A stretch of DNA of 50,234 bases from Nitrospira sp. (GTDB taxonomy: Bacteria; Nitrospirota; Nitrospiria; Nitrospirales; Nitrospiraceae). Positions 30,739-48,818 of this stretch are shown in pieces (position 1 is the first letter of the stretch; each line of letters starts with the position of its first letter). The stretch is from positions 1 to 50,234 of the forward strand of contig JAJONL010000006.1 in assembly GCA_021323395.1 (NCBI GenBank). Direction: 5' to 3'. A program made the translations under genes and the position numbers. A model generated the notes under the pieces. It had not been told where the DNA came from, did not search any database, and worked only from the letters and a program-made list of their open reading frames with translations.

Positions 30739-30792
30739 CGTGGCACCTCCCTTGACGATGGCGCGGATACAGCTTCATGCCGCCCGCGACAG

Positions 30793-32037
30793 TTAGAAAA
30801 ACTCGAACATCCACGATCGCATGCGATCGAACACTTTCCCCAAGCCTTTGCCGTGTCGAATGCCGGCCGCTTCCAAATTGTCGGCATGCTGGCGCGCGTG
30901 CAGCAGGAGTCCGACGCCGGTCGCATGCATCGGATTGCTCACGATATCGCGTAACCCGCCGATGCCCGTCGGCATGCCCCGTCGGGCCGGCAGGTTTAAC
31001 CCTCGCTCCGCCGCATCGGGCATGCCCTCCAACAATGACGTGCCGCCGGTAATGACGACCCCGGCGCCCAACATGCCTTCGTAGCCGGCTCGCACGATTT
31101 CACGTTTGACCAGATCGAACATTTCTTCGACCCGCGGTTCGAGGATCTCGGCGATATCACGGCGCGTGAACTGCCGGGGCGGACGGTCGCCGACGGACGG
31201 GACCTCGACCATCTGGTGTCCGTGCACCAGTTCGGTACGGGCAATCCCGTGCTGCACTTTGATTTTTTCCGCATCGGTTTGCGAGGTCAATAAACCGATC
31301 GCCAGATCTTTGGTCAGATTCTGTCCACCGATCGGCAGCACCGCCGTGTGCCTGATGCTCCCGTCGAGAAAGATCGCCAAATCAGTCGTGCCGCCACCCA
31401 GGTCCACCATGGCCACTCCCAACTCGCGCTCCTCCGCGCTGAGCACGGCTTCGCTCGACGCGAGCGGCTGCAGGATAATGTCCACCACATCGAGTCCCGC
31501 GCGATTCACACTCTTGATGATGTTCTGCGCGGAGGTGACGGCTCCCGTAATCACATGGACATTCACTTCGAGTCGATTGCCCGACATGCCCAATGGCTCG
31601 CGCACACCCTCTTGGTCATCGACCATGAATTCGCGCGGCAACACGTGGAGGATGCGCCGTTCGTGCGGAATCACCGCCAGGGTCCGCGCGCTTTCCACGG
31701 CGCGGCTGATGTCGTCTCGCGTGACCTCCTGCTTCTTGAGGGCGACGACGCCCTTGAGATTTTCACCGGAAATATGACTCCCGGCGATGCCGGTATAGAC
31801 GGAATTGATCTGCACAGCCGCCATGAGTTCCGCCTCTTCCACCGCCTTCTTGATCGACTCCACTGTACTCTCGATATTGACCACCACACCCTTGCGAAGC
31901 CCGCGCGAGGCACAGGAGCCGACACCGATGATGTTCAGCGGGCCCTCATCCGGCACTTCGGCGACAATCGCACAAATCTTGGTGGTCCCGATGTCGAGGC
32001 CGACCAGGATATGATCCCGCTTAGACACTCGGCTCAC
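30793..32037 (-). CDS. ftsA: Cell division protein FtsA
   Basis: The 414-residue actin-like ATPase ties FtsZ filaments to the membrane. LVGLDIGTTKI (phosphate 1), VDLGGGTTDLAIF (phosphate 2) and VITGGTSLLEG (adenosine) are conserved. The C-terminal amphipathic helix (FDRMRSWMFEFF) needed for membrane contact is present. The GTG start at 32037 overlaps the ftsQ stop (GTGA), so coupling is likely. Confidence 0.97.
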   Translation of the reverse strand: MSRVSKRDHILVGLDIGTTKICAIVAEVPDEGPLNIIGVGSCASRGLRKGVVVNIESTVESIKKAVEEAELMAAVQINSVYTGIAGSHISGENLKGVVALKKQEVTRDDISRAVESARTLAVIPHERRILHVLPREFMVDDQEGVREPLGMSGNRLEVNVHVITGAVTSAQNIIKSVNRAGLDVVDIILQPLASSEAVLSAEERELGVAMVDLGGGTTDLAIFLDGSIRHTAVLPIGGQNLTKDLAIGLLTSQTDAEKIKVQHGIARTELVHGHQMVEVPSVGDRPPRQFTRRDIAEILEPRVEEMFDLVKREIVRAGYEGMLGAGVVITGGTSLLEGMPDAAERGLNLPARRGMPTGIGGLRDIVSNPMHATGVGLLLHARQHADNLEAAGIRHGKGLGKVFDRMRSWMFEFF

Positions 32038-32906
32038 CCCCTTCCTCGAACAATGACGCGGTCGGCGAAGCGAAGATCGATTTCATTCGTCCTCGCCCCC
32101 TCGCCGTCAAAAGCCACGTCGTGCAGCGCAGGCCGCATCTTCAGAAACCGAGACCATTGTTGATCCATGGACGCCTCGCTGAACTGGAAGGTCACGCCCT
32201 GCACGACCACGACCAGATTATTCAAATTGCTGACATTGATGTCGGGGCGTCCCCCTGTCGTCTGGCTCACCAGGCGAGCCAAGTTTGCGCCGACATGGAC
32301 CGCGCGACGATCCTCCGGTTTCCCCTGCACGAGCCGCTTCCCATCGACGCCAGATAAGATCGGCAACGAGGGATCGTCCGTCGAACCCAGATGTGCCAGT
32401 AAGAACCCTTCCGCATCCGTCAGAAGATTTTCGGTCACGGTGCGCACGACCGCGGCCGGCTCCCGTTCGACGATTTCGATGTGAATGTCATGGAGCGGCT
32501 TCAACGTCACCGTCGCGTCCTTGATCCAGGGATGGGACCGGATCCGTTCCGCCAACCAGGAGGGGTTGATGGAATACAGCGCGGTATCGGGCTTCAGCGC
32601 CAGCCGGCCGAGGACTTCTTTTCTCGTCACATGGTGCAAACCATTCACAGAGACCGAACGCACCAGAAACCATTCTCGCGTGATCGGGCCCAGTTCGCGG
32701 GCCAAGACGAACAGGCCGGAACAACCCCCGACCAGCACCGTCACCGTCGCGACGACCCGCAGGGAGATCAACAACCCCCGCCCCAATCGCGACCAGTACC
32801 CGCGCGCCACGCCGCCTCGGTCCCGCTTGTAGGGAGACTCCGACCGCGCGTTGGCCCGCGGGTTCTCTTTTTTTGCGCGTGCTGTGCGGCGCCATTGCAG
32901 AGCCAT
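32034..32906 (-). CDS. ftsQ: Cell division protein FtsQ
   Basis: The 290-residue bitopic protein has a basic cytoplasmic N-terminus of about 45 residues and one membrane segment (about 47-70, LLISLRVVATVTVLVGG). A POTRA domain (about 80-150, VSVNGLHHVTRKEVLGRL) and the FtsQ beta domain follow in the periplasm. It links early and late divisome proteins. The ATG at 32906 has GAGGTAACG upstream and follows ddl by two bases. Confidence 0.93.
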   Translation of the reverse strand: MALQWRRTARAKKENPRANARSESPYKRDRGGVARGYWSRLGRGLLISLRVVATVTVLVGGCSGLFVLARELGPITREWFLVRSVSVNGLHHVTRKEVLGRLALKPDTALYSINPSWLAERIRSHPWIKDATVTLKPLHDIHIEIVEREPAAVVRTVTENLLTDAEGFLLAHLGSTDDPSLPILSGVDGKRLVQGKPEDRRAVHVGANLARLVSQTTGGRPDINVSNLNNLVVVVQGVTFQFSEASMDQQWSRFLKMRPALHDVAFDGEGARTNEIDLRFADRVIVRGRG

Positions 32907-32908
32907 CG

Positions 32909-33892
32909 TTACCTCACCGCTCGAAACGAGCCGCTTCCTGCTCGCTCGATAGCAGACTGGAGAATCCGTTCCGTCAAGGCGTCATAGGAGAGACCGGCCT
33001 TACCCGCCGCCATCGGCAAGAGACTCGTCTCCGTCATTCCCGGCACCGTGTTGATTTCCAGCACAAAGGGCTTCCCCTTCGGCGTAATGCGAAAATCGAC
33101 GCGTGCGGCTCCATTGCATCCCAGCACTTGATAGGTCTTGATCGCTACTTGCTTGATTTGGCGAGTCATCGCAGCCGACAGGGGTGCCGGGCAGAGGTAC
33201 TGCGTCCGGCCTTTCTCGTACTTGGCGGAAAAATCGTAGAATCCGTCGGGAGCGACAATTTCTACGGCGGGCAGGCCGGTCACCGTTCCATCAGCTCCAC
33301 CCAACAACGAAACGGTAACTTCGTGTCCGGGGACAAAGGCCTCGACCATCGCCTCCGCGTCGTACTGATGCGCCAGGCTGAGGGCCTCTTTCCACTGGGA
33401 GGGTTGGCGAACGATGGTCACACCGATCGTGGATCCTTGACTCGCCGGCTTGACGACCACGGGCAGTTTCAACTTGTACGCGCTGAGAATGCGCCCGAGG
33501 GTCGGAGCCGTCCTCCGCAGCACCACCGCCCCTTTGGGAACGGGAATGCCCTCAGCAGCCAGTTGCGTCTTAGTCGCCACCTTGTGCATACCGATGGCGC
33601 TGGCCCGCACCCCGGATCCCGTATAAGGAATACCCAGCGTCTCCAAAAAACCTTGAATTGAACCATCTTCTCCGCCTGGGCCGTGTAGAGCCAGGAACGC
33701 CATCTCGACCCTCTGCTCTTGCATCGATTGGGTCAGCGCCGGACCGACATCGATGGCCACCGCATCGTAGCCACTTCGTACCAGTGAGCGATATACGGCC
33801 TCGCCGGTCTTCAGCGACACCTCACGCTCCGAAGATTGGCCGCCCATCAGCACTCCGATTTTTGCGCGAGTCAATGGTTTACGTTCCGTCAC
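32909..33892 (-). CDS. ddl: D-alanine-D-alanine ligase
   Basis: This ATP-grasp enzyme makes the D-Ala-D-Ala dipeptide for MurF. KIGVLMGGQSSEREVSL is the family start region. GPGGEDGSIQG, the ATP-binding VVVKPASQGSTIGV and the metal-binding EINTVPGMT are intact. I chose GTG 33892 (327 residues) because AAGGA lies 8 bases upstream. A TTG at 33919 overlaps the murB stop (TTGA) and would add nine residues. Confidence 0.95.
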   Translation of the reverse strand: MTERKPLTRAKIGVLMGGQSSEREVSLKTGEAVYRSLVRSGYDAVAIDVGPALTQSMQEQRVEMAFLALHGPGGEDGSIQGFLETLGIPYTGSGVRASAIGMHKVATKTQLAAEGIPVPKGAVVLRRTAPTLGRILSAYKLKLPVVVKPASQGSTIGVTIVRQPSQWKEALSLAHQYDAEAMVEAFVPGHEVTVSLLGGADGTVTGLPAVEIVAPDGFYDFSAKYEKGRTQYLCPAPLSAAMTRQIKQVAIKTYQVLGCNGAARVDFRITPKGKPFVLEINTVPGMTETSLLPMAAGKAGLSYDALTERILQSAIERAGSGSFRAVR

Positions 33893-33915
33893 AGCCCTGT
33901 CCTTCCTCGACTTCG

Positions 33916-34851
33916 TCAAGCCTGGCCCACAACTTTCAGTTCCAATTCCAGGGTGATACCTGACTGTTTCTTCACGGCCGCTCGCACCTTCTTTATGAGG
34001 GTCACCACATCCCCGGCTCGCGCGTGGCCGACGTTGACCACGAAGTTCGCATGTTTTTCGGACACCTGGGCGTCCCCGACACGGACACCCTTCAACCCCG
34101 CCGCTTCCACCAGACGGCCGGCTGAATCATGCGGAGGATTCTTGAAGACGCAGCCGGCGCTCGGCAACGTCAACGGCTGGGTGTCCTTGCGATACTGCAA
34201 ATATTCCTTCACGGTTTTTTCAACCCGTCCATGCTCACCGGGCTTCAACTGCAACCAGACTCCGACGACGATACCGCGAGGCAGGTGGGCCCGCCGATAG
34301 CTGAACGGGATATCGGCGGCCGGAATGTCGCGCATCCGACCGCGGAGGTCGAGCAAACGGACGGCTTTCACTGAATCCTTCATTTCCCCCAGCCGCGTAC
34401 CCGCGTTCATCACGACGCAACCGGCGACGGTACCCGGTATTCCCGCCCCCCACTCCAACCCGGTCAACGACCGGCGGACCGCATACCCGATCAAGGTCGG
34501 CATTCCCACGCCCCCTTCCGCATAGAGCACATGGCCCGGCTCCTGGCGAATGGCCTTGAATTTTTTCAGACTGACCACGATCCCGCTGATGCCGCCGTCC
34601 CGAATCAAGAGATTCGTCCCGCCCACGACGAAGGTCGGAATGTTTTCAGCGCGCGCCTGTGCCATCACCCGACGGAGGTCCTCCACATCCGCCGGTTCGA
34701 TGAGCACCTCCGCTGGTCCACCGATGCGGAAGGAAGTATACGATTGCAACGACGCTCCATAGCTGACCGTGCCTCGCACTCCCTGAAGTATGCGCGCCCA
34801 GTCCTTTTTGTTTCTCGCCGGCGGCTGCTTGCTCTTCGCACCTGGCTCCAT
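33916..34851 (-). CDS. murB: UDP-N-acetylenolpyruvoylglucosamine reductase
   Basis: MurB is a flavoenzyme that reduces the enolpyruvyl group to give UDP-MurNAc. The protein has 311 residues from ATG 34851 with GAGGG upstream; a TTG at 34890 would overlap murC. The FAD-binding VVGGTNLLIRDGG and GIPGTVAG motifs are conserved. The proton-donor position, Ser in Escherichia coli, reads Cys here (SAGCVFKNP), a substitution common in the type II form. The C-terminal SEKHANFVVN is typical of type II MurB. Confidence 0.95.
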   Translation of the reverse strand: MEPGAKSKQPPARNKKDWARILQGVRGTVSYGASLQSYTSFRIGGPAEVLIEPADVEDLRRVMAQARAENIPTFVVGGTNLLIRDGGISGIVVSLKKFKAIRQEPGHVLYAEGGVGMPTLIGYAVRRSLTGLEWGAGIPGTVAGCVVMNAGTRLGEMKDSVKAVRLLDLRGRMRDIPAADIPFSYRRAHLPRGIVVGVWLQLKPGEHGRVEKTVKEYLQYRKDTQPLTLPSAGCVFKNPPHDSAGRLVEAAGLKGVRVGDAQVSEKHANFVVNVGHARAGDVVTLIKKVRAAVKKQSGITLELELKVVGQA

Positions 34852-34870
34852 TTCGGCCCTCGCAGTCTGC

Positions 34871-36253
34871 TCAGGCCGGTAACCGATCAAGAATCGCCAG
34901 ACCCGCTTTCCAGATGTCCCCTGCGCCGAGAGTAATCACCAGATCGCCGGACTTCAGGGAGGGCAGCACCTGATCCGCCAATGTCTCCTTGCGTTCCACG
35001 AAGGTCGCCGAAGGATGTCCCCCGGCACGCACGGCCTCGACCAGTTTTTCACCGGACACACCGGGAATCGGCTGTTCGCCGGCCGCATAGATCTCCGTCA
35101 GGAACAAAACATCCGCCTGATCGAACGCATGAGAAAATTCTTGCAGCAAATCTCGCGAGCGGCTGTACCGATGGGGCTGGAACAGCACCACCACGCGCCG
35201 GTCCCATCCTTGCTTCGCCGCCGCGATGGTAGCCCGCACCTCGGTCGGATGGTGCCCGTAATCGTCCACGACCATAATCCCGGCCTTCTCGCCGCGTAGA
35301 TGGAACCGCCGCTCCACACCGGTGAAGGCCGCCAAACCTTTCCGAATCAGATCGACGGGAATGTCCAATTCCAGCCCGATGGCGATCGCGATCAGCGAGT
35401 TGCACACGTTATGGATGCCGGGGATGGCCAGCCGGAACGGCCCCAGATTTCGCCCGCGAAAAAAGACGCGAAACTCCGAACCCCACTGCCGCAAACTGAT
35501 ATCGGTCGCGCGAAAATCCGGCGCTTGACCGGCATGCTCGTGGAGACCGTAGGTCTGGTAGCGCTTGACCACTCGTGGAAGCAACTCGCGCAGCCGCTCA
35601 TCATCGGCACATAGGACGGCCAAGCCGTAGAACGGCACCTTGTTGATAAATTCCAGGAAGCTGTCATTGAGCCGTTCCATGGTCCCATAATGGTCGAGAT
35701 GCTCGCGATCTATATTCGTCACGGCGGCAATCGTCGGCGCCAGGCGAAGAAACGACCCATCGCTCTCATCGGCCTCCGCAATGAGCAGATCGCCCCGTCC
35801 CAACCGCGCATGGCTCCCCAACGCATTCACCTTGCCGCCGATCACCATTGTGGGGTCCAAGCCACCCTGGGCCAGCACATTGGCCACCATCGATGTGGTC
35901 GTCGTCTTGCCATGAGCGCCGGCAATGGCGACCCCAAATTTCAACCGCATCAGTTCCGCCAGCATTTCAGCACGCGGGATAACGGGGATCTGCTTGGCTC
36001 TTGCCGCGACCACTTCGGGATTGGTGGCGGCCACTGCGGAGGAGATCACCACGACCTGCGCCTCGCCGATATTGGATTCCTGATGACCGAACGCAATACG
36101 CCCGCCTAATTCTTCGAGCCGGCGGGTGGTTTCCGATTGAGTGAGATCCGATCCGCTGACCTTGTACCCGAGCGTTAACAAGACTTCGGCGATCCCGCTC
36201 ATCCCGGAGCCGCCGATACCCACGAGATGAATATGTTGTGTTTTTCTAAACAT
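34871..36253 (-). CDS. murC: UDP-N-acetylmuramate-L-alanine ligase
   Basis: The enzyme adds L-Ala to UDP-MurNAc with ATP. The protein has 460 residues. The N-terminal Rossmann motif [17 protein letters not shown], the ATP-binding [12 protein letters not shown] (about 113-124) and the C-terminal [12 protein letters not shown] are diagnostic of MurC. ATG 36253 ([12 protein letters not shown]) is the family start; the longer open frame extends into the murC-murG spacer without family resemblance. Confidence 0.97.
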
Positions 36254-36335
36254 CGTCGCCTGCTTTATGCCCTCCGTCCGGAATGGTCTGCGTAGGCCGC
36301 CCCTGTCATGGCGCGGGCCTTCCCGCGGTCGCTGA

Positions 36336-37457
36336 TCATAGGACGCGAGCGCTCCCGCTGCTCTCATGGCGCCTCCTTATGACGTCGTAACACTCGCGAA
36401 CAATAGCTGTCGCCGCATCGCTGCGTCGCATCGTCCAACTCTGCCGACTCATGGTTTGAAGCCGCTGGGGCTCGCCCAAAATGTCCGTGATGATCCGAGC
36501 CAAACCTGCGCCGGTCAGGTCCGCCTGCGGCAGGAGCACGGCGCCGCCGGCCTGAGCCATCACTTCCGCATTGCGCAGCTGATGATTGTAGATCGCCGTC
36601 GGGAGCGGAATCAGAATCGCAGGCTTTCCGCACACGGTCAGCTCTGCGATGGTCATGGCGCCTGCCCGAGACACCACCAGGTCAGCGGCACGAAGCACCG
36701 CCGGCATGTCGTACAGAAACGGCACCACCTGGGCAGAGATCCGAGCCTTCTCGTACGCTGCGACGACCCGTGCATGGTCGGCCTCTCCGGTTTGATGTGT
36801 GATGGCCAGTTCATCTTTCACGACACCGAGCAACGGCAGCGCCTCGATCACCGCCGAATTGATCGCCTTCGCCCCTTGACTGCCGCCGAAAATCAACAGA
36901 TGCCGGGTGGAGCCCGCTTCAATCCGCCTCGGTTCAGGCTCTGGCGCGTCCAGGAATGCCTGGCGGACCGGGGTCCCGACGACCCTGGCCTTGCGTCGGT
37001 CAAAGAATTGCCCTGTCGATTCAAAGGCGAGAAAGACTCGCTGAACGAGCGGCGCGACCACCTTGTTGGCCATCCCAGGAAAAGCGTTCGGTTCCAGGAT
37101 CACGCCGGGAATTCGTCGCAGAAACGCTGCCACGAGCATCGCCGGACTGGTATACCCTCCAACCCCCAACACCAGATCTGCTCCCTGTTTTTTCAGGATG
37201 GCCAGCGATTGCCATACACTCACCGGCGAGGTGCCCACTGCCTTCATCATCTCGATGGGCCGCTTGCCCATCAATGGATGTGCGCTGATGCACTGCAACG
37301 AGAAGCCTTCGTGCGCCAACACCTTGCGTTCGATGCCCCGGTTCGTGCCGACGAACAGAATGCGCGTGGAAGGATCGCGCCGCAGAAATTCCCGGGCTAC
37401 CGCAATGGCCGGATACAGATGACCCCCCGTTCCGCCGGCTGCAATCACAATATTCAC
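36336..37457 (-). CDS. murG: UDP-GlcNAc-undecaprenyl-pyrophosphoryl-MurNAc-pentapeptide transferase
   Basis: The enzyme adds GlcNAc to lipid I to form lipid II at the inner face of the membrane. The 373-residue GT-B transferase begins [17 protein letters not shown] (GTG start at 37457, overlapping the ftsW stop as GTGA). [13 protein letters not shown] and [13 protein letters not shown] are the donor-binding parts. The same frame stays open far upstream, through ftsW, but that part is a shadow. Confidence 0.97.
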
Positions 37458-38662
37458 GCCGTGACGACCCCGCGCTTCCGCACGCCGCGCGGCCCGCCAC
37501 TCTCCCGCCCGCCCTGCCGGTCGCGAGAAATGCTCAGTAGGATCCCGACGCCGAACAAATTGGCGACCAAGGACGATCCGCCGTAACTGACGAACGGCAG
37601 AGTCAACCCCTTGGTCGGCAACAGCCCGGTGACGACCCCGGCATTGACCAGCGCTTGCATGCCGACCAGCATGGTGATGCCCATGGCGAGATGCCGGCCG
37701 AAGGGACTGCGCGCGCGGCCGGCGATCTGGAATCCCTTGAGGACAAATAAGCCGAACAGTAAGACAATGGCCACGCTCCCGGCGAGCCCTAACTCCTCTC
37801 CTACCAGGGCCAGCACAAAATCCGTATGCGCCTCGGGCAGAAAAAACAATTTTTGTTTTCCCTCGCCCAATCCCACGCCGAAGGGTCCGCCGCTGCCGAA
37901 TGCCAAAAAGGACTGGGTCATCTGATACCCAGCGCCGGACGGATCCTTCGCAGAGCGCAGAAACTCCAAGATACGTTGCCGCCGATAGCTCGACCCAAAA
38001 ATCAATGCCGCCACCGCCGGCAACGCGCACAGCGACAGGAGGCCCAAGTGTTTGATGCGCGCCCCTGTAAGGAACAGCAGCGTCACCACCACCAGACCCA
38101 TGACCACGACTGTTCCCAAATCGGGCTCCAAGAGGATCAATCCACTGAGCGCTCCGAGTATGATTAACGGCGGCAGCAGGCCGCGAGCGAACTGCGTGAG
38201 CTGGTCCTGCTTCTTGCTGACATAGGCCGCCACATAAATCACCATGACAAATTTGGTGAGTTCGGCCGGCTGAATGTTGATCGGGCCTGCATGCAGCCAT
38301 CGCCGAGCCCCCTTGGCCGCGCTGCCGAACGACGGAACGAGCACCAGTACCAGCAGGACGGTCGTCATCAATAACAAGGGAACCGAGAGCTTCCTCCAGA
38401 GGGCGTAGTCGATCTTCGACACAAGATGCATCACGAGCAGGCCGGCACCCATCCAGGCCAATTGACGTTTGAGAAAATACCAAGAATCGTGAAACCGAAT
38501 CCCTGCCACCACCGCACTGGCGCTGTAGACCATCACGACCCCCACCAGCGCGAGCACGAGCGTGATCGCCAAGAGCGCGGGGTCCACCGGCACGCGCTTG
38601 TACGTCCGCTGGGGTGAGGCCGACCAGGGCAAACTGAGGGTTTCGAGCGCATGCTGTCGCAT
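37454..38662 (-). CDS. ftsW: SEDS glycosyltransferase FtsW
   Basis: The 402-residue polytopic membrane protein has about ten segments. It polymerises lipid II at the septum together with its partner FtsI. Conserved pieces are VMVYSASAVVAG, the HAGPINIQPAELTKFVMVIY loop, LLEPDLGT and the C-terminal LTLPFVSYGGSSL. Its position between murD and murG supports FtsW rather than RodA. Confidence 0.96.
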   Translation of the reverse strand: MRQHALETLSLPWSASPQRTYKRVPVDPALLAITLVLALVGVVMVYSASAVVAGIRFHDSWYFLKRQLAWMGAGLLVMHLVSKIDYALWRKLSVPLLLMTTVLLVLVLVPSFGSAAKGARRWLHAGPINIQPAELTKFVMVIYVAAYVSKKQDQLTQFARGLLPPLIILGALSGLILLEPDLGTVVVMGLVVVTLLFLTGARIKHLGLLSLCALPAVAALIFGSSYRRQRILEFLRSAKDPSGAGYQMTQSFLAFGSGGPFGVGLGEGKQKLFFLPEAHTDFVLALVGEELGLAGSVAIVLLFGLFVLKGFQIAGRARSPFGRHLAMGITMLVGMQALVNAGVVTGLLPTKGLTLPFVSYGGSSLVANLFGVGILLSISRDRQGGRESGGPRGVRKRGVVTA

Positions 38663-38697
38663 CGTTCAGCTGCCGTTCCTCCCCTGCTACGGCCGGC

Positions 38698-40086
38698 TCA
38701 TGCCGGCAGTCCATGCACAAGAGCCTTGAACTGTCGACCCCGGTCCTGATAATCCGCGAACATGTCAAAACTGGCGCAGGCCGGCGAGAGTAAGACCACC
38801 TCGCCGGGCTGCGCCTCGCGAGCAGCAAGCTCCACGGCTTCGCGGAGAGTCGCTGCAGGACGACACCGATCAAAATCGCCCATGGCGGCTTGGATGCGGC
38901 CTGCCGCCTCGCCGATCAGAATGAGGCCCTTGACACGCTCCCGGATCAACCCGCGTAGACGGGCAAAATCGCCTCCCTTGTCACGTCCGCCGGCGATCAG
39001 CCATATAGGTTGCTCGATACCTTCCAAGGCCTTGAGCACGGCATCCACGTTGGTCCCTTTGGAGTCGTTGACAAAGCGGATCCCTCGACGTTCTCGGACG
39101 ACTTCAAGCGCATGTTCCAAACCGGGAAAGGCCCGCAACACCGTGCGGATCGATTCGATCGAACAGCCGCAGAGCAAGCCGTAGGTGACCGCGGCCATCA
39201 CGTTTTCAACATTGTGGAGCCCGATCAGTCGCATGTCACTGCGACGGCAAATCTCTTCCCGTTGTCCTCTGACCGTCGTGACGATCCGATCGCCATCCAA
39301 GAAGGTCGCCTTGGAAACCCCGGACAGAGAGGCGCCGGTCCGGCTGAATCCCAAGACGGTCGCCTTGGTGCATGCACGGAGCTCGGTGACGCGCGCATCG
39401 TCGAGATTGAACAGCGAATAGTCGCCGGCTGTCTGATTAGAGAAAATGTTCGCCTTGGCCGCCACATACTCTTTCTCTGACGCGTACCGATCCATATGGT
39501 CCAACGTCACGTTCAGCACCGCGGCGATCCATGGATGAAACTGCACAATCGTTTCGAGCTGAAAGCTGGAGACCTCCAGCACTGCATAGTCGTAGGGCGC
39601 GGCGCCTCCCAACTTGGTTTCGAGACAGTTGAGCGCCGCCTGGGTGGCGGCGATCCCCAAATTCCCGCCGACGAAGGCCCGCTTCCCGGCCTCCTGCAAA
39701 AATTTGCCGATCAACGTGACCGTCGTGCTTTTCCCATTGGTCCCAGTCACCGCCAAAATGGGCGCGGTCAGAAATCGGGACGCCAGCTCCAATTCGCCGA
39801 TCACCGGCACGCCCCGAGCGCGGGCGCGGTCAAGGACATCAAGGCGGGTCGGCACTCCAGGGCTGATCACAATGAGATCCGCTCGGTCGAGCGCCGATGC
39901 GTACTGCGCTCCGACGTTCACGGCGATTTTCGTCTGGTCCAGCTGCGATAGCACGGCGGTCAGCTCCTGCGACTTTTTTCGATCGGCCACGGTTACCCGC
40001 GCACCGAGCTGATGCAGCAACTTCGCGGCTCCCACACCGCTTCGCGCCAGCCCGACCACTGCGACTTGTAGATCTTTGACGTTCAC
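38698..40086 (-). CDS. murD: UDP-N-acetylmuramoylalanine-D-glutamate ligase
   Basis: The 462-residue Mur ligase adds D-Glu. The N-terminal [15 protein letters not shown], the ATP-binding [23 protein letters not shown] and the C-terminal [19 protein letters not shown] identify MurD. The GTG start at 40086 lies 10 bases after the mraY stop. Confidence 0.97.
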
Positions 40087-40096
40087 AGGGCTCCGG

Positions 40097-41173
40097 CTAT
40101 CGAAGTTTGAGCGTGCTCAAGCTGAGCAACGCCAGCAAAATAGCAATGATCCAGAGACGCACCACGACTTTCGGCTCGTCCCATCCCTTCATCTCGAAGT
40201 GATGATGAATAGGGGCCATGTTGAAAATTCGCTTGCCTCGCAGCTTGTAGGATCCGACTTGTAAGATGACCGACAACGCCTCGATGACGAACACGCCGCC
40301 GACCAGCAACAACAACAGTTCGTGCTTGCTGATCACCGCCACCGTTCCGAGGGCTGCTCCCAAGGGAAGCGATCCAACATCCCCCATGAAGACCGACGCC
40401 GGGTAGGTGTTGAACCAGAGAAAGCCCAAACTTGATCCCAATATGGCGCCGGTAAAGATAGCGATTTCTCCCGCCCCTTCGATATAGGGAATAAGCAGGT
40501 ATTCGGCCATGACCCGGTTGCCGGTCACATAGGCCACGATCGTATAGGCCAAGGCCGCGATCATGACGGGACCAATGGCCAGCCCATCGAGCCCATCGGT
40601 CAGATTAACGGCATTCGAGCTGCCCACGATGACGAGAATGACGAAGACAATGTAGAACCAGCCCAGATCTGGCGTAAAGAACTTGAAGAACGGCACGCTC
40701 AGCCTGGTGGTGTAACTGGGAAGCGTGTACAGAAACACACCGATGGTGAGCGCCACCAGAATCTGGCACGTGAACTTTTGCGTCGCCGACAGGCCCCTCG
40801 ATCGTCGCTTGATGAATTTGAGATAGTCGTCGACGAACCCCACCGCCCCAAACCCCACGGTCGCAATCACCACCAGCCATACGTAGCGGTTGGTCATATC
40901 GGCCCAGAGTAACGTGGACAACACGACGGCGAAGATGATGAGAATTCCACCCATGGTCGGGGTGCCGCTTTTCGCCAGATGCCGCTTCGGCCCATCATCC
41001 CGAATCTGTTGACCGAGCTTGATCTCCTGCAGCTTACGAATCACCCAGGGCGCCATGACAAAGGCGATGAGAAATGCCGTCACCGCCGCGTAAATGATCC
41101 GAAAGCTCTGATAGCGAAACACATTCAGGAACGAAAACTGTGTATGCAGTGGATAGAGCCAGTTGTATAACAT
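40097..41173 (-). CDS. mraY: Phospho-N-acetylmuramoyl-pentapeptide-transferase
   Basis: MraY makes lipid I by moving phospho-MurNAc-pentapeptide to undecaprenyl phosphate. The protein has 358 residues and about ten membrane segments. [15 protein letters not shown] (catalytic Asp pair), [10 protein letters not shown] and the C-terminal MAPIHHHFE are all conserved. ATG 41173 (MLYNWLYPL) is the family start; the upstream ATG at 41194 is less likely. Confidence 0.97.
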
Positions 41174-41230
41174 CCTGCGATCTTTGCCCGTCATCCGTCG
41201 ACGGGGGTTAGAGTCCTTCCGTACTGTCTT

Positions 41231-42670
41231 TCAGCCGGCCTTGGTGGCGATTCGTCGCATCCCGGTGATGGCTTCCACGACCTGTTCCATCCGCATGCCG
41301 CGAGAGGCTTTCACCAGCACCACGTCGCCCTGCCGCACCATCGATGCTAGAGCGGTTCCCGCAGCCGCCGCATCCGGCAATTCCATAATGCTATCGGTCC
41401 GCATTCCGGCCCGATGGGCGCCTTCCGCAAACTCCCGTCCCAGCAGGCCGCAGGCCAGCAATTGTCCAATTCCCTGCCCGGCTAGAAATGCCCCTATCTC
41501 TCGGTGCATCTGCTTGCTACCCGCTCCCAGTTCCAACATGTCACCCAGCACCGCGATCGAACGCTTCCCGCGACCGAGCGCGGCAAGAAGCTGAATCGCC
41601 GCCTTCATGGAAGCTGGGTTGGCGTTGTAGCAATCATTGATGATCTGGACGCCCTGTGAGGTACTGATCTGCGAACGCATGGCCGCCGGGCGGAACTTTG
41701 CCAAACCTTCGGCGATGACCATCCCGGGGAGCCCTAGCACGACGCCCACCCCCGCGGCGGCGAGCGCATTGCTCACATTGTGTGATCCCTGGGTGCGAAT
41801 ACGCACTTCTGGCTGACGGCTTTTGCCAGGCAACACCAGGCCAAAAACCGTCCTGCCCTTGTCATCGGTTCGTATGTTGACGGCGCGAACTTCCGCCTTG
41901 GGAGAACAACCGAATGCTACCACCCGGCATTGCGCCCGCGCGGCGAGATAATCGAAATAGTCATCATCCGCATTCAACACGACCGCGCCGCCTTGCGGCA
42001 GGTGATCGAGCAACTCAGCCTTGGCTTGGGCGGATCCCTCTATATTGCCGAAGAACTCGAGATGGTCCGGCCCGATATTCGTAATGACTCCGATGGTCGG
42101 TCTCGCAATTTCACACAGCCGAGTCGTTTGTCCTTCCTGATCCACTCCCATTTCGATGACCGCCGCTTGATGGCGCGCGGCGAGCTGAAACAGGGTCTGG
42201 GGAACGCCGATTCGATTATTGAGATTGCCCTCGGTCTTCATCGTCTTCCAGCGTTGCGCGACCACCTGAGCGACCATTTCTTTCGTGGTCGTCTTACCAT
42301 TACTCCCCGTAATGGCGATCACCGGGATCGAAAAACGGTTCCGATAATGGGTGGCGAGACATTGGTAGGCTTCCAGGGTATCCTGCACCCCCACCAGGAT
42401 CGGCCTATGCGCACGTTTCGGCGACGACGGGAGCCGATAGTCTTCCTGCGCGATGACGCACACCGCTCCTTGCGCGAGCGCCTTCGTCACGAACGCATGG
42501 CCGTCAAAGCGATCGCCCTGCAACGCGATGAACAGATCCCCTTTTCGCGCCACTCGCGAATCAGTGATCACCCGCTGGATCCGCTGTTTGAGATCACGCG
42601 GCGTCAGCCCTGCAGGCGTCTTGGCGCCCAAGACCTCGCAGATCTCTTCAACGGTAAACAGCGGCATCAT
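41231..42670 (-). CDS. murF: UDP-MurNAc-tripeptide-D-alanyl-D-alanine ligase
   Basis: MurF completes the cytoplasmic pentapeptide by adding D-Ala-D-Ala. The protein has 479 residues from the first of two tandem ATGs (42670, 42667). DSRVARKGDLFIALQGDRFDGH, the ATP-binding TGSNGKTTTKEMV and NDCYNANPASM are diagnostic. It follows murE by 34 bases. Confidence 0.96.
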   Translation of the reverse strand: MMPLFTVEEICEVLGAKTPAGLTPRDLKQRIQRVITDSRVARKGDLFIALQGDRFDGHAFVTKALAQGAVCVIAQEDYRLPSSPKRAHRPILVGVQDTLEAYQCLATHYRNRFSIPVIAITGSNGKTTTKEMVAQVVAQRWKTMKTEGNLNNRIGVPQTLFQLAARHQAAVIEMGVDQEGQTTRLCEIARPTIGVITNIGPDHLEFFGNIEGSAQAKAELLDHLPQGGAVVLNADDDYFDYLAARAQCRVVAFGCSPKAEVRAVNIRTDDKGRTVFGLVLPGKSRQPEVRIRTQGSHNVSNALAAAGVGVVLGLPGMVIAEGLAKFRPAAMRSQISTSQGVQIINDCYNANPASMKAAIQLLAALGRGKRSIAVLGDMLELGAGSKQMHREIGAFLAGQGIGQLLACGLLGREFAEGAHRAGMRTDSIMELPDAAAAGTALASMVRQGDVVLVKASRGMRMEQVVEAITGMRRIATKAG

Positions 42671-42704
42671 TACATGGTTCCCTGCTCGCGCACCCCGTCC
42701 TCGC

Positions 42705-44213
42705 CTAGACCCCAGATCGCAATGTTCCAATGGTTTCACGCGCGACTTTGCGATCGTCAAAAGGATGCTTCGTGGTCCCCAGGATCTGATAATCCTCATG
42801 ACCCTTTCCCGCGATCAATACCATGTCGCCCGCTTTCGCCTCGTGAATCGCCGCCTCGATGGCAGCCCGGCGATCCGCAATCATGCGGTACCGAACCTGG
42901 GACCGATCGGAGAGCGCTTCTTTCACGCCGACTTCGACTTCGCGTAAAATGGCAGCAGGATCTTCGGTGCGCGGATTGTCCGACGTCAGCACCACCACGT
43001 CACTGTATTGCACCGCCGCGCGTCCCATCTTGGGGCGCTTGGTGCGGTCTCGGTCGCCGCCGCACCCGAAGACGGTGATAATGCGTCCCGCGCGAAGCGC
43101 TTGCGCCGCCGTCAACAGGCGGACCAACGCATCTTCGGTATGCGCATAATCGACCACGACAGTGAAATCCTGGCCCGCCTCGACCAGCTCAAATCGTCCC
43201 GGCACGTTGGTAACCGCTCGGATAGCCGACCGAACCTGATCCAGCGTCAGGCCTTCGTGCAGCGCCACACCGATGGCAGCCAAGAGATTATAAACATTGT
43301 GCTCGCCCACCAACCGGCTCTGTATCGCGCAGCTCCCCAGAGGACTACGCAGAGTGAAGGTGGTGCCGGTAGGCGATAGCCTCACATCTTCAGCCCGCAG
43401 GTCCGCCTGGTGGCGCAGTCCATAGGTCCAGACCGGAACCGTACAGGCCTCACCAATCCGACCGCCCCAGGGATCGTCCACATTGACGATCGCGCGCTTG
43501 CTCGGCTTGCTGGACCCAGCCTGCTCGAGTTCCGCGAACAGTTTGCGCTTCGCCTGAAAATAAGATTCCATGTCGACATGAAAATCCAGGTGATCTTGGG
43601 TCAGATTCGTAAAGACCGCGACATCAAACTCGGAGCCGGTGGTCCGATCCAGCGCCAGCGCATGCGATGACACTTCCATGACGACGGTATCCAATCGGGC
43701 CTCAACCATGCGCGCGAACAACCGCTGCAGCTCCAGTGCGCCCGGCGTGGTGTGGGACGCCGGGATCGATTCTTTCCCGATAAGGTAGACCACGGTGCCG
43801 ATCAGACCCACCTGCCGGCTCGCCGCTTCGAGCATGGTCTTCACAATGTACGTCGTCGTCGTTTTTCCGTTCGTTCCTGTCACCCCGATCATCCGTAAGG
43901 TTGCCGAAGGATCGCGATAGAACCGACTACCGAGGATCCCCAAGGCCTCGCGCGAATCCTGCACACGGACGGAAGCGATCGACCCGACCGCCGCGTCTCG
44001 CTCCACCACAACCGCTGCCGCGCCCGCGGCCACGACGCGGTCGAGAAATGCATGCCCATCGACCCGCTCGCCCTTCACGGCGACGAAGAGGGACCCAGCC
44101 TCCACAGTTCGGGAATCATCGGTCAGCCCGGAAATGGTCACGCGCTGGTCTCCGGTTCGCTCCAGCACCTTGAGACGCCCCTGGATAGGGCTGATCAGTT
44201 CATCAAGGGTCAT
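42705..44213 (-). CDS. murE: UDP-MurNAc-L-Ala-D-Glu-2,6-diaminopimelate ligase
   Basis: The 502-residue Mur ligase adds the third stem residue. DSRTVEAGSLFVAVKGERVDGH, TGTNGKTTTTYIV and AGKGHEDYQI are conserved. The substrate-selecting motif reads DNPRTEDP, the form found in ligases specific for meso-diaminopimelate, so the peptidoglycan is probably of the diaminopimelate type. It starts 4 bases after the ftsI stop. Confidence 0.97.
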   Translation of the reverse strand: MTLDELISPIQGRLKVLERTGDQRVTISGLTDDSRTVEAGSLFVAVKGERVDGHAFLDRVVAAGAAAVVVERDAAVGSIASVRVQDSREALGILGSRFYRDPSATLRMIGVTGTNGKTTTTYIVKTMLEAASRQVGLIGTVVYLIGKESIPASHTTPGALELQRLFARMVEARLDTVVMEVSSHALALDRTTGSEFDVAVFTNLTQDHLDFHVDMESYFQAKRKLFAELEQAGSSKPSKRAIVNVDDPWGGRIGEACTVPVWTYGLRHQADLRAEDVRLSPTGTTFTLRSPLGSCAIQSRLVGEHNVYNLLAAIGVALHEGLTLDQVRSAIRAVTNVPGRFELVEAGQDFTVVVDYAHTEDALVRLLTAAQALRAGRIITVFGCGGDRDRTKRPKMGRAAVQYSDVVVLTSDNPRTEDPAAILREVEVGVKEALSDRSQVRYRMIADRRAAIEAAIHEAKAGDMVLIAGKGHEDYQILGTTKHPFDDRKVARETIGTLRSGV

Positions 44214-44216
44214 ATG

Positions 44217-45935
44217 TCACGATTTGACGCCGGCCATGGCTAGTTTGACCGGCTCATCCACTGCCACACCGAGGTAGTTCAGGACTTGTTCACCGACACG
44301 CCGGAACACCGGCGCAGCCACGACACCGCCCCAGCCTTCTCCGCGCGGTTCATCAATGACGACGATCATCGCCAATCGGGGGTCCTCCGCCGGAACATAT
44401 CCCAGAAACGAACCCACCAGAAGCGTGGAGGAATAGGCGCCGGTTCGCGGATCCACTTTCTGTGCGGTACCGGTTTTGCCGGCTACGCGATAGCCTGGGA
44501 TGGCCGCTTTTCCTCCCGTCCCGCTCGTGACGACGCCCTCCAGCAGCGTCGTCAGCGTCCTGGCGGTATCGGCAGATATGATACGCCGTTTCGCATGGGG
44601 CATCGTTTGCGATACCAGCTGGCCCTTGGCATTCCGGATTTCCGAGACCACATAGGGCTTCATGAGCAGGCCGCCATTCGCGATAGCCGACGCGGCCGTG
44701 ACCATTTGAAGCGGAGTCACCCCGATTTCTTGCCCCATCGAGATGGAGGCGAGGGAACGCTTCCCCCATTGGCGCGGCCCCCGCAACAACCCCCCTGTTT
44801 CGCCCGGCAGGTCGATGCCGGTCTTATCCCCGAATCCAAATTCTTTCAAATAGTCAAATACACGCCACTCCCCCAACGCCATGCCCACCTTCGCCGCGCC
44901 GATGTTGCTGGACTTCTGAATCATTTGCGCGAAGGTCATCCAACCCAATTTTTCATGGTCATGAATCACGGTGTTGGCAATCGACAACTGCCCATTATCC
45001 CCATAGATCATGCTGCCTGGGGTCATCACTTTTTCTTCAAGGGCGGCCGCCGCAATCACCGTCTTCATGGTTGAGCCCGGCTCATAGGTGTCCGTCAAGG
45101 CCCGATTGCGCCATCGATCAGGAGCCAACGCCGCCACCGCATTCGGATCGAACCGAGGGCTGACCGCCATAGCCAGTACCGCTCCTGTCCTGGGATCCAT
45201 GACAATGATCGTCCCGGATTTCGCATTGGATCGGCTCACAGCCTCATCCAACTCTTTCTCGGCAATGTACTGAATCACTTCGTCCACCGTGAGGGTTAAA
45301 CTATGCCCTGCCGCCGCGCCTTCTTCATTGAGGCCCTTAGGAAAGACGGCCCGCCCCAGCGCATCCCGCTGCAAGATGACGGCTCTTTTCTCGCCCCTCA
45401 AATATTGCTCGTATCGCAGCTCCACACCCTCCAACCCACGATCGTCCATTCCCGCGAAGCCCAGCACATGTGAAAGCAACGGTCCTTTAGGGTAAAATCG
45501 GCGGCCCTCCATCACGACCCCGACACCATCGAGGGACAGCCGTTCGAGGCGTCTTCCCTGTTCGGGCTCCAGCTTTCTCGCCAACCAAACAAAATGCTTT
45601 TCCTGTTTGAGCTTCTTCTCAATTTCCGTCGCTTTCACATGCAAAATCGGTGAGAGATTGCGAGCCGTGAGGCCGGGATTGCCGAGCGACGCAGGCACCC
45701 CGAACACGGAGGGCACCTCCATATTCATTGCCAAGACCTTACTGTTTCGATCGTAGATCGTACCTCGCGCACCCTCCAGGGTCACGTTTTTCTGATGTTG
45801 TCGATCCGCCCTTACCGTCAATTCGGCAGCCTGCAGCACTTGGAGATTCACGAGCCGGATGATGACCAGGATGAACGCCACCGCAAGTCCGCAGGCCACC
45901 ACCATGCGGCGACCCCGAAAGGGCATGGCCGTCAC
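44217..45935 (-). CDS. ftsI: Septal transpeptidase FtsI (class B penicillin-binding protein)
   Basis: The 572-residue class B PBP has one N-terminal membrane segment (about 12-30) and a PBP dimer domain (about 55-205). The transpeptidase domain carries STMK (Ser288), SSN (about 346) and KTGTAQK. It cross-links septal peptidoglycan with FtsW. No C-terminal PASTA domains are present. The GTG at 45935 overlaps the ftsL stop by one base; ATG at 45926 is an alternative. Confidence 0.96.
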   Translation of the reverse strand: MTAMPFRGRRMVVACGLAVAFILVIIRLVNLQVLQAAELTVRADRQHQKNVTLEGARGTIYDRNSKVLAMNMEVPSVFGVPASLGNPGLTARNLSPILHVKATEIEKKLKQEKHFVWLARKLEPEQGRRLERLSLDGVGVVMEGRRFYPKGPLLSHVLGFAGMDDRGLEGVELRYEQYLRGEKRAVILQRDALGRAVFPKGLNEEGAAAGHSLTLTVDEVIQYIAEKELDEAVSRSNAKSGTIIVMDPRTGAVLAMAVSPRFDPNAVAALAPDRWRNRALTDTYEPGSTMKTVIAAAALEEKVMTPGSMIYGDNGQLSIANTVIHDHEKLGWMTFAQMIQKSSNIGAAKVGMALGEWRVFDYLKEFGFGDKTGIDLPGETGGLLRGPRQWGKRSLASISMGQEIGVTPLQMVTAASAIANGGLLMKPYVVSEIRNAKGQLVSQTMPHAKRRIISADTARTLTTLLEGVVTSGTGGKAAIPGYRVAGKTGTAQKVDPRTGAYSSTLLVGSFLGYVPAEDPRLAMIVVIDEPRGEGWGGVVAAPVFRRVGEQVLNYLGVAVDEPVKLAMAGVKS

Positions 45936-46267
45936 TACCGCGCTCTCCGCGTCACGATATTTTTGGCGATTCGCACCTCACCCTCCGCCGCGATCGGATT
46001 CGTCGGCGCCTCAGGCTCAATGTTGATAACCACGACCTGGCCCTTCTCAGGCTGCATCATTCCCAACTTATCGGTGGCCAGTCGGGCAATTCGCTCAGGC
46101 GCCGTGTACCCGGACAACTTCACCCGCAATTCGTCGCGTTCCCGCTCGAGAGCGACCTTCTGCGTCTTCAGCCGCTCAATCTGATAACCGATGCGAACGA
46201 TGTCCACCCGCTCCCATACAAAGAGCAAGACCAGCGACGTGACCGCAGCAAACGCAACGGCTTTCAT
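45935..46267 (-). CDS. ftsL: FtsL-like cell division protein
   Basis: The 110-residue protein has one N-terminal membrane segment (about 4-20, VAFAAVTSLVLLFVW), a leucine- and arginine-rich coiled coil (about 25-60) and a short tail including PERIARLATDKLGM, typical of FtsL/DivIC proteins. It bridges FtsQ and FtsI-FtsW in the divisome. Its ATG overlaps the rsmH stop (ATGA). Sequence similarity in the family is low; the rsmH-ftsI position carries much of the call. Confidence 0.88.
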   Translation of the reverse strand: MKAVAFAAVTSLVLLFVWERVDIVRIGYQIERLKTQKVALERERDELRVKLSGYTAPERIARLATDKLGMMQPEKGQVVVINIEPEAPTNPIAAEGEVRIAKNIVTRRAR

Positions 46268-47187
46268 TGCATACACTCCTTGGAACACCGCTCCGCAACG
46301 CGCAACTTTGCGCTCCGCGACCGCGGGTTTCGGTTACGCTCGTTATCCGAAGCCGTGACAGGCTTTTTCGTCAGTAGTCTCAATGAGGCGCCGGGGCCGT
46401 TCGCCATCGCCCGAAACGTATTCTTAACGATCCTGTCTTCCAGGGAGTGAAAAGAAACGGCACAGACCCGCCCCCCGGGAACTAGAATATCGACGGCATC
46501 CCGAAGAGCCGGCTCCAGTACATCCAACTCGCGGTTGACTGCAATCCGCAATGCCTGAAAAGTTCTGGTGGCGCAATGAATCCGTCCATGCCGGTACGAA
46601 GCCGGCACGGCGCGCTCGACCACAGCCGCTAATTTCCAGGTGGTCTCGATCGCACCCAGCATTCTTGTCTGCACAATCGCTCGCGCAATCCTCCGTGAGT
46701 ATCGCTCCTCACCAAAATGGTAGATCAGGTCAGCCAACTCAGTTTCCGGCAGATCACGAACGAGGTCCGCCGCAGTGCGGCCCTCGCTCTGATCCATGCG
46801 CATATCCAAGGGACCGTCTTCGCGAAAACTAAATCCACGCTCGGCCCGATCGAGCTGGGGAGATGAGACGCCAAGATCGAAGATCACGCCGTCCACCCGC
46901 CGCACTCCACTCTCGGCGACATGCGCCTTGAGGTCTCGAAAGTTTCCATGCCTCAAACGCACACGAGCGCTGTCGCCTCCAAGGCGCGTTTGCGACTCCC
47001 TGAGTGCCGCTGCATCGCGATCGATTCCCACGAGGATGCCGTCTGGAGAGATATGATCGAGAATGTGAGAAGCCAGCCCCGCATATCCGAGAGTGCAGTC
47101 CACGTAAACTCCACCGGGTTTGCACTGCAGCCAGAATAGGATTTCTTCGACTAAAACCGCCTCATGGGAATCGCGAGTAGAATTCAT
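46264..47187 (-). CDS. rsmH: 16S rRNA (cytosine-1402-N4) methyltransferase
   Basis: RsmH methylates C1402 in the ribosomal decoding centre using S-adenosylmethionine. The protein has 307 residues from ATG 47187. FDLGVSSPQLD, RGFSFREDGPLDMRMD, FQALRIAVNREL and CAVSFHSLEDRIVK are conserved. Motif I reads DCTLGYAGLASHIL, where most homologues have Gly-x-Gly-Gly-His-Ser. It is the first gene of the dcw cluster here; the usual leading gene mraZ is absent. Confidence 0.95.
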   Translation of the reverse strand: MNSTRDSHEAVLVEEILFWLQCKPGGVYVDCTLGYAGLASHILDHISPDGILVGIDRDAAALRESQTRLGGDSARVRLRHGNFRDLKAHVAESGVRRVDGVIFDLGVSSPQLDRAERGFSFREDGPLDMRMDQSEGRTAADLVRDLPETELADLIYHFGEERYSRRIARAIVQTRMLGAIETTWKLAAVVERAVPASYRHGRIHCATRTFQALRIAVNRELDVLEPALRDAVDILVPGGRVCAVSFHSLEDRIVKNTFRAMANGPGASLRLLTKKPVTASDNERNRNPRSRSAKLRVAERCSKECMQ

Positions 47188-47190
47188 TTC

Positions 47191-47214
47191 ACCACTTCCA
47201 CCCACTTCACCCCA
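47191..47214 (-). promoter_or_regulatory. Candidate MraZ operator: three 10-bp-spaced TGGG-type repeats
   Basis: On the minus strand, TGGG (47214-47211), TGGG (47204-47201) and TGGT (47194-47191) occur exactly 10 bases apart. They lie between the predicted rsmH transcription start and the ATG. MraZ of Escherichia coli binds TGGGN repeats separated by 5 bases, which is the same period, in the same position of the dcw operon. Confidence 0.6.
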
Positions 47215-47226
47215 TTAATGGGCTGG

Positions 47227-47254
47227 AGTATACACCCAACCAAATGACTGTCAA
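47227..47254 (-). promoter_or_regulatory. Strong sigma-70 promoter for the dcw operon
   Basis: TTGACA (47249-47254) and TATACT (47227-47232) are 16 bases apart on the minus strand, with transcription expected near 47220. Directly upstream, AAAATTTG occurs twice with a 12-base period (47267-47274 and 47255-47262), an A/T-rich pattern like an UP element. Confidence 0.75.
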
Positions 47255-47331
47255 CAAATTTTGCCGCAAATTTTCATGTATTTTGTCTTGGTCTTCCCTC
47301 ATGATTTCACGACCACGAGCATGGATGAAAG

Positions 47332-47394
47332 TTATCCACATTTGTGGATAACTCTGTGGGAAACTAACCCACCTATGATTAAAATTGTGCGTAA
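47332..47394. promoter_or_regulatory. DnaA-box cluster with a perfect inverted pair
   Basis: TTATCCACA (47332-47340) and TGTGGATAA (47343-47351) are two perfect consensus DnaA boxes in opposite orientation, forming a 22-base palindrome. Weaker boxes lie at 47355-47363 (TGTGGGAAA) and 47386-47394 (TGTGCGTAA), each with two mismatches. The cluster is about 80 bases upstream of the rsmH promoter. Confidence 0.65.
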
Positions 47395-47723
47395 AAGTTC
47401 AGCCCCCAAAATGAGTGGTTTTTTGACGCCAACCCAGTCGTCCACGGCTAGCCTCTCACTCGCTAAACCAAATCGGAAAAAACATATCAACGGAACTGAA
47501 ATCAGGTGTGTCAAGCAACTAACCCTTGGAGCAGAACAGCCCCTATAAGCTTCAGCCCCCTAGGAAATCCATCTTTATTCAGACGCCCAGAAGCCCCTCG
47601 GTTTCGACCCCTTCAATATCGATCCATGGAGCCGAAACCATAGAAGACTGCGCACCTGGTGAACCACCACAAATTCCTGTTTGATTGACACACTTGCACC
47701 CTGAGCGCATCATCCAATCAACG
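47395..47723. other. Rest of the divergent intergenic region
   Basis: Between the DnaA boxes and the exported-protein gene I see no gene, tRNA or clear promoter for the plus strand. The stretch has short A-runs and T-runs and is somewhat A/T-richer than the flanking genes. Confidence 0.5.
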
Positions 47724-48818
47724 ATGCGCCTGCCGTTCACTCAGCATCATCTCAGCGCGAAAGCAACCCTGCTGGGCAGTCTGCTGGTCATGACGCCGGC
47801 TTCCCCTATTGGGGCGGGTGAGTTCAGAACGGACAATCCGCTCAACCAGCCTGCCAAAATCTATTGGTGCCCGAATCGCCAGGCGGACAAGCAAATCACG
47901 GCCACCCCCGACGCTGGCTGCACAGCGCTGTACGACGCGGACCGTGATGGGAAGAAACCCGAGACGGTCGGTCAGTCCAGCCACGATGAAACCACGCCCA
48001 GGGAACCGTTAAAAATTATCGAGATTCAGAATGAAGCCGCGAAATTTACGCGCGAGTACCGAGCATTTCTCGACTGCTGCGCCGGCGACTTCGACTCGCT
48101 CGAACAGATCGACGAGCTTCTCGACAAATCCAATCACCTCCTCATGTCAGTGCAACAAAAGGGCATCTACAATAGCGCGGGATTCGGCGTGGGAAGCGGG
48201 GCCGGTGGACTGGGCGGGGGACCGGGCCAATCGCCCAAACTCGGCACCTTCGCGCGGCAATGGACGCTCAGTGAGATTGTGGGTGCTGTGGCGACGGCCC
48301 GCGATAGCCTGACGAAAATCAAGTCTCGAGTGAAGGCCCTCGGCGATCGGTTTGAGAAACTCGACGCCCTGGACTATGAGCAGCGTGCTAGGGAGGAACG
48401 CCGCATCGAGGAAGAACGAGAAACCATCACTCGCGATCTGCGAGCCAAGAGACCGCCCGCATCAGCTCCGACAGGCATGGACATTCAAGACACGACGATT
48501 CCGACGAGAATCGGCGGAGAGATTGAAAACACGAATCTGAATCGCTCCCTCAATCCGAGCTTCGGCGCTGATATAGGCGCGACCGTCTCTCCCTACAGCA
48601 ACGTCAATGAGTCGTTGCGTCCTCGGCGGGGAGAGGACCTCAAGGACAGCAATTTGCCGGATCGAGTGGGTCCCCATACACAAGACACCACCTTGCCGAA
48701 TGCATTCGGATTCGAGATCAACGACTCCCAGAATGCCGACAACTCATCATCCGTGCAGATGCGGGGCGTCGGGCCCTCGATCGGTGACTCATCCCTCAAT
48801 AACCAATCTCGCCGATAG
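47724..48818 (+). CDS. Exported protein with repetitive C-terminus, unknown function
   Basis: The protein has 364 residues from ATG 47724, which begins a signal peptide (LSAKATLLGSLLVMTPASPIGAG). The mature part has a Cys-containing N-terminal region (YWCPNRQ, GCTALYDADRDGK) and a helical middle (about 105-250) with a glycine-rich loop (GVGSGAGGLGGGPG). It ends in about 110 residues of degenerate repeats of the form I-x-D-T-x-[IL]-P-x-R-x-G (DIQDTTIPTRIG, DLKDSNLPDRVG, HTQDTTLPNAFG, EINDSQN). No ribosome binding site is evident; a TTG at 47685 would add 13 residues. No known family is recognised. It is divergent from the dcw operon. Confidence 0.75.
   Translation: MRLPFTQHHLSAKATLLGSLLVMTPASPIGAGEFRTDNPLNQPAKIYWCPNRQADKQITATPDAGCTALYDADRDGKKPETVGQSSHDETTPREPLKIIEIQNEAAKFTREYRAFLDCCAGDFDSLEQIDELLDKSNHLLMSVQQKGIYNSAGFGVGSGAGGLGGGPGQSPKLGTFARQWTLSEIVGAVATARDSLTKIKSRVKALGDRFEKLDALDYEQRAREERRIEEERETITRDLRAKRPPASAPTGMDIQDTTIPTRIGGEIENTNLNRSLNPSFGADIGATVSPYSNVNESLRPRRGEDLKDSNLPDRVGPHTQDTTLPNAFGFEINDSQNADNSSSVQMRGVGPSIGDSSLNNQSRR

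Follow-up and report, generated by a model that had tools for sequence, protein, structure and literature searches.

A genus-wide DnaA-box module upstream of the predicted division-cluster promoter of Nitrospira suggests a link between replication and division genes

DnaA is the protein that starts chromosome replication, and two of its boxes, placed face to face upstream of a division operon in Nitrospira, raise the question which process they serve: the transcription of the division genes, the handling of DnaA itself or the initiation of replication. The stretch of DNA analysed here (the window, 50,234 nucleotides) is contig C128 of a 3.5-Mb Nitrospira assembly in 234 contigs, which belongs to the defluvii lineage and has Candidatus Nitrospira defluvii among its relatives. 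It carries a division/cell-wall (dcw) cluster, entirely on the minus strand and in the order rsmH-ftsL-ftsI-Mur ligases-mraY-murG-murC-murB-ftsQ-ftsA-ftsZ, with the following coordinates:

46264-47187, minus strand: rsmH (mraW), the first cluster gene
45935-46288, minus strand: ftsL
44217-45935, minus strand: ftsI (penicillin-binding protein)
29539-44213, minus strand: remaining cluster (Mur ligases, mraY-type transferase, murG, murC, murB, ftsQ, ftsA, ftsZ)

The predicted promoter upstream of rsmH reads TTGACA-16-TATACT, both promoter and transcription start being predictions from consensus. The facing boxes lie 78 bp upstream of its -35 hexamer in the window, and the elements of the region are, from the upstream end:

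47386-47394, minus strand: second weak box TTACGCACA, two mismatches, in unconserved DNA
47368-47372, minus strand: GTGGG half-site, inverted relative to the CCCAC of the third box
47355 to about 47363/47364, minus strand: third, weaker DnaA-like box TTTCCCACA, two mismatches, inside the block GTTTCCCACA
47343-47351, minus strand: DnaA box 2, exact TTATCCACA, facing box 1 over 2 bp (TT), the promoter-distal box of the pair
47332-47340, plus strand: DnaA box 1, exact TTATCCACA, nearly invariant at this position in relatives
47261-47287, minus strand: A/T-rich block just upstream of the -35 hexamer, mean pairwise identity 0.87 in the genus
47249-47254, minus strand: predicted -35 hexamer TTGACA
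47227-47232, minus strand: predicted -10 hexamer TATACT
47192-47215, minus strand: MraZ-box-like array, made up of GTGGG-type repeats every 10 bp and extending over the predicted transcription start

The first-pass annotation had described two exact boxes facing each other over a 2-base spacer, and these are indeed present, the 11-bp arms of the pair forming an almost perfect palindrome. Its two weaker boxes are present as well and have fared differently: the first, 3 bp from box 2 and directed as box 2, shows no variation among the 27 readable genomes of the genus (defined below), whereas the second is not conserved, for which reason we reject it as probably a chance match. The module at rsmH reads TTATCCACA-TT-TGTGGATAA-CTC-TGTGGGAAA, with the layout > 2 < 3 <. 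The A/T-rich DNA reported alongside the boxes was also found, the stretch between boxes and -35 hexamer having 61% A/T compared with 41% in the window.

Taken singly, exact boxes occur about as often as chance would have it (13 genome-wide against 11 for a control, the pattern read backwards), and the eight other exact boxes of the genome that were examined lie mostly inside open frames, none of them in a facing pair. A facing exact pair is expected only about 7e-6 times per 3.5 Mb. With up to one mismatch allowed, such a pair occurs at just two places in the genome, here and before dnaA; the same two places hold it in most genomes of the genus, and in other genus members one of the two falls below the threshold. 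Among the 175 genomes of the family that were searched, most matching genomes from other genera carry one facing pair, and the control pattern at the same threshold gave zero matches. A chance origin of the pair is rejected by its conservation.

For this conservation, 29 genomes of the genus were compared; 28 contain rsmH, and in G025 the contig ends just before this gene, leaving 27 readable upstream regions. Both boxes are kept with at most one mismatch in 26 of them, and the possibility that the boxes are absent in close relatives, on which the first-pass annotation had staked its proposal, can thereby be set aside. The remaining genome, G020, is the most distant one (RsmH identity 73%) and keeps the layout with weaker boxes (three mismatches). 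The pair keeps a distance of 95-97 bp to the -35 hexamer in the 26 genomes and of 100 bp in G020, and the inner spacer is 2 bp in every readable genome. The pair has a mean pairwise identity of 0.95, the adjoining block GTGGGnnnGTTTCCCACA one of 0.88 and the stretch from -35 to -10 one of 0.93. By the same measure, the sequence immediately downstream of the pair scores 0.41 and that upstream of the block 0.38; genomes of one genus do not count as independent observations, but these flanks have drifted enough for conservation to carry meaning. That the sequence has drifted while its length stayed constant is a sign of a protein complex in phase with the promoter. At base 3, box 2 has A in 12 genomes and G in 14, and the box is otherwise almost constant; TTATCCACA and TTGTCCACA, which differ at base 3 in just this way (A or G), are known DnaA-box alternatives, and two relatives have TTGTCCACA in their dnaA-proximal clusters as well.

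The strongest argument for the rsmH site being a DnaA site comes from the region before dnaA, where the same layout is found. Directly upstream of this gene stands TTATCCACA-AC-TGTGCATAA-AGC-TGTGAACAT, which shares with the rsmH module the strong box TTATCCACA and the identical > 2 < 3 < arrangement; the third box is however TGTGAACAT instead of TGTGGGAAA, and the GTGGG half-site is lacking. The layout recurs at the matching place in each of the 14 inspected relatives, which include four from other genera, dnaA having been confirmed only in the window's genome and the place recognised in the 14 relatives by the same downstream sequence.

With two exact boxes and one weak box found upstream of rsmH-ftsL-ftsI, in the promoter region of the division operon, we regard it as probable that they form a DnaA-binding regulatory module of the dcw promoter, which would be DnaA-responsive; this suggests DnaA as the link that couples replication to the division genes. 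According to this proposal, DnaA would bind the facing pair and the third box cooperatively, at about -112 to -143 relative to the predicted transcription start, and from this fixed helix position would modulate a sigma-70-type promoter, with transcription of the rsmH-ftsL-ftsI-mur genes, and perhaps of ftsZ, following the amount or the nucleotide state of DnaA. MraZ would probably act on the same promoter via the GTGGG repeats at the transcription start. Activation appears slightly favoured because of the upstream position, repression being possible as well. The idea of DnaA control over the division operon, already voiced in the first-pass annotation, has thus gained comparative support (genus-wide conservation, fixed promoter distance, dnaA-like layout), while DnaA binding, the change in transcription and its direction are what we infer from these sequence patterns.

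The proposed connection between DnaA and division genes has precedents. In Bacillus subtilis, DnaA binds the promoter region of the ftsL operon, according to ChIP results as cited in PMC8203912 and PMC11019786, and in Caulobacter crescentus it activates ftsZ, as related in PMC8203912. The B. subtilis case is similar in that DnaA sits at the promoter region of an operon with rsmH, ftsL and pbpB/ftsI; it differs in that the Nitrospira evidence is one of sequence conservation, with three boxes in a fixed arrangement such as also precedes dnaA, and the regulatory sites of the two organisms are probably independent. Caulobacter shares with our proposal DnaA as a division-gene regulator, acting on a different target promoter. 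What would be new is DnaA-type control of a division promoter in the form of a genus-specific module. Our literature search found no report of DnaA boxes in promoters of Nitrospirota.

The downstream part of the promoter region fits a better known pattern. The MraZ-box-like array lies between promoter and start codon and is kept across the family, and GTG-type repeats with a 10-bp period over the start site, together with an mraZ gene in the genome, are what would be expected of an MraZ-controlled mra promoter; MraZ repeats are similarly placed at the start site in E. coli and Burkholderia, by the account in PMC7761207. Unlike such promoters, the one described here has its mraZ outside the division cluster on another contig (G000:C81:82442-82849), MraZ-box-like repeats at the cluster promoter notwithstanding, and has the upstream DnaA module of this genus in addition. 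The A/T-rich block at 47261-47287, which reads ACAATATTCTTGATAAAT in most relatives, is possibly an UP element, a site for a second factor or a site for a bending protein. An IHF-like site in this block (TTGATA in most relatives) was considered and discarded, its spacing being off by one and the window copy having lost it.

A striking resemblance exists to DARS1 and DARS2 of E. coli, whose core reads TTATCCACT-ATTCC-TGTGGATAA-CCA-TGTGTATTA in NC_000913.3 (MG1655): here as there, two facing boxes I and II are followed, 3 bp on, by a weaker box III directed as the second one, so that > 5 < 3 < compares with > 2 < 3 < in Nitrospira. A DARS-like site would use the facing boxes, which are essential for ADP release in E. 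coli, together with the third box to set ADP-DnaA molecules head to head and to promote this release, thus acting on DnaA and not on the promoter. The stable chromosome position would suit such a role, although it may simply reflect gene order: measured in four single-contig genomes, the distance between the site and the dnaA-proximal cluster is 583-717 kb, which corresponds to 13.5-16.6% of the chromosome. The inner spacer, however, is 2 bp and not 5 bp in every readable genome, for which reason we do not class the module as DARS. Furthermore, the same layout stands before dnaA, and the fixed spacing to the -35 hexamer is not expected of DARS; we know of no DARS tied to a promoter at fixed distance. 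The DARS2 core is moreover described as kept among gamma-proteobacteria related to E. coli (PMC4245941). Taken as the whole explanation, a DARS-like function seems unlikely to us. A combination of both ideas, a DARS-like DnaA-reactivating site built into a division promoter outside Proteobacteria, would be a long shot; if true, one nucleoprotein complex would reset DnaA as well as set division-gene transcription, coupling the two in both directions.

Alternatively, the palindrome could be the operator of another transcription factor and its match to DnaA boxes a coincidence. The almost perfect palindromy of the arms is consistent with this, and so is the adjoining block GTGGGnnnGTTTCCCACA (window 47355-47372), which has no known owner. 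The block is longer than the weak DnaA box alone and hardly varies within the genus; the exact GTGGGnnnGTTTCCCAC occurs a single time, only at this site, in 27 of the 29 genomes, and a search for copies of GTGGGnnnGTTTCCCACA elsewhere, by which a regulon might have been named, found the exact sequence nowhere but here in each genome. Since GTGGGnnnGTTTCCCACA matches the DnaA pair in its degree of conservation and is what G020 has preserved best, a second factor may even be the main regulator. Such a factor may bind GTGGGnnnGTTTCCCACA, and on account of the GTGGG core MraZ might be suggested, which is a guess. As an explanation of the pair itself, we nevertheless find a foreign operator rather improbable: both arms are exact 9-base DnaA boxes, their variation is concentrated at base 3, the same three-part layout precedes dnaA, and neither block nor pair is repeated at other promoters.

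A site that titrates DnaA, as the first-pass annotation had proposed in the alternative, or one that resembles datA, with no part in transcription in either case, would explain why strong boxes cluster outside the origin. Only three or four boxes are available, however, and loss of the neighbouring gene leaves the module in place at rsmH. The essential boxes of datA share one direction (PMC5742627) and have an IHF site between them, whereas the strong boxes here face each other, 2 bp apart. The distance of 95-97 bp held to the -35 hexamer in particular makes pure titration quite unlikely.

DnaA boxes beside A/T-rich DNA are also reminiscent of a replication origin, the other alternative named in that annotation, together with the proposal to locate dnaA and the turn of GC skew. 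Both place the origin elsewhere, at dnaA. The genes dnaA and dnaN and their own further boxes are on contig C185, not on the window contig, and in the single-contig chromosome of N. defluvii, sampled in 20 stretches, skew has positive values between 0 and 2.16 Mb and negative ones beyond (one stretch near zero), turning near dnaA, with the site at 717 kb inside the positive-skew arm and thus 717 kb away from this turn. A second or true replication origin at a site that neither adjoins dnaA and dnaN nor coincides with the skew turn can be practically dismissed.

The reading of the module as a DnaA-responsive part of the division promoter has to account for its distribution, since the absence of the module from other genera in the family speaks against this reading. 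Pair and block are absent from 62 rsmH upstream regions of other genera, in which the TTGACA -35 hexamer and the GTGGG repeats are kept; the module has hence either been gained in one lineage or lost in others. The core promoter is the same in this genus and in its sister genera, and only in the former is it accompanied by the module, at one fixed promoter distance; such a natural with/without comparison opens the proposed link to tests in vitro and by promoter fusions.

Within the genus, the gene neighbourhood has changed around the module. In most relatives, asnS lies between the divergent gene and the module, and it is gone in the window's own lineage; the module remains with rsmH whether asnS is present or lost, which ties it to the rsmH promoter. 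Reading the site as a transcription terminator was dropped, none having been found there and the site being situated between divergent genes. The divergent gene itself (window 47685-48818) has no Pfam match and is kept near the cluster in the genus with 72-84% identity. As to asnS, it is missing in the window genome (window 47395-47685), and remnants are left in two close relatives (L002:1949-2155 and L003:2397-2603); GatB is present in the window genome, and with asnS missing, Asn-tRNA is probably made via the indirect route. Outside the genus, several genomes (loci L068, L072, L077 and L079) share the motif GTTTTCCACA, which differs from a DnaA box at one position and lies at about -292 to -308, roughly 300 bp ahead of rsmH.
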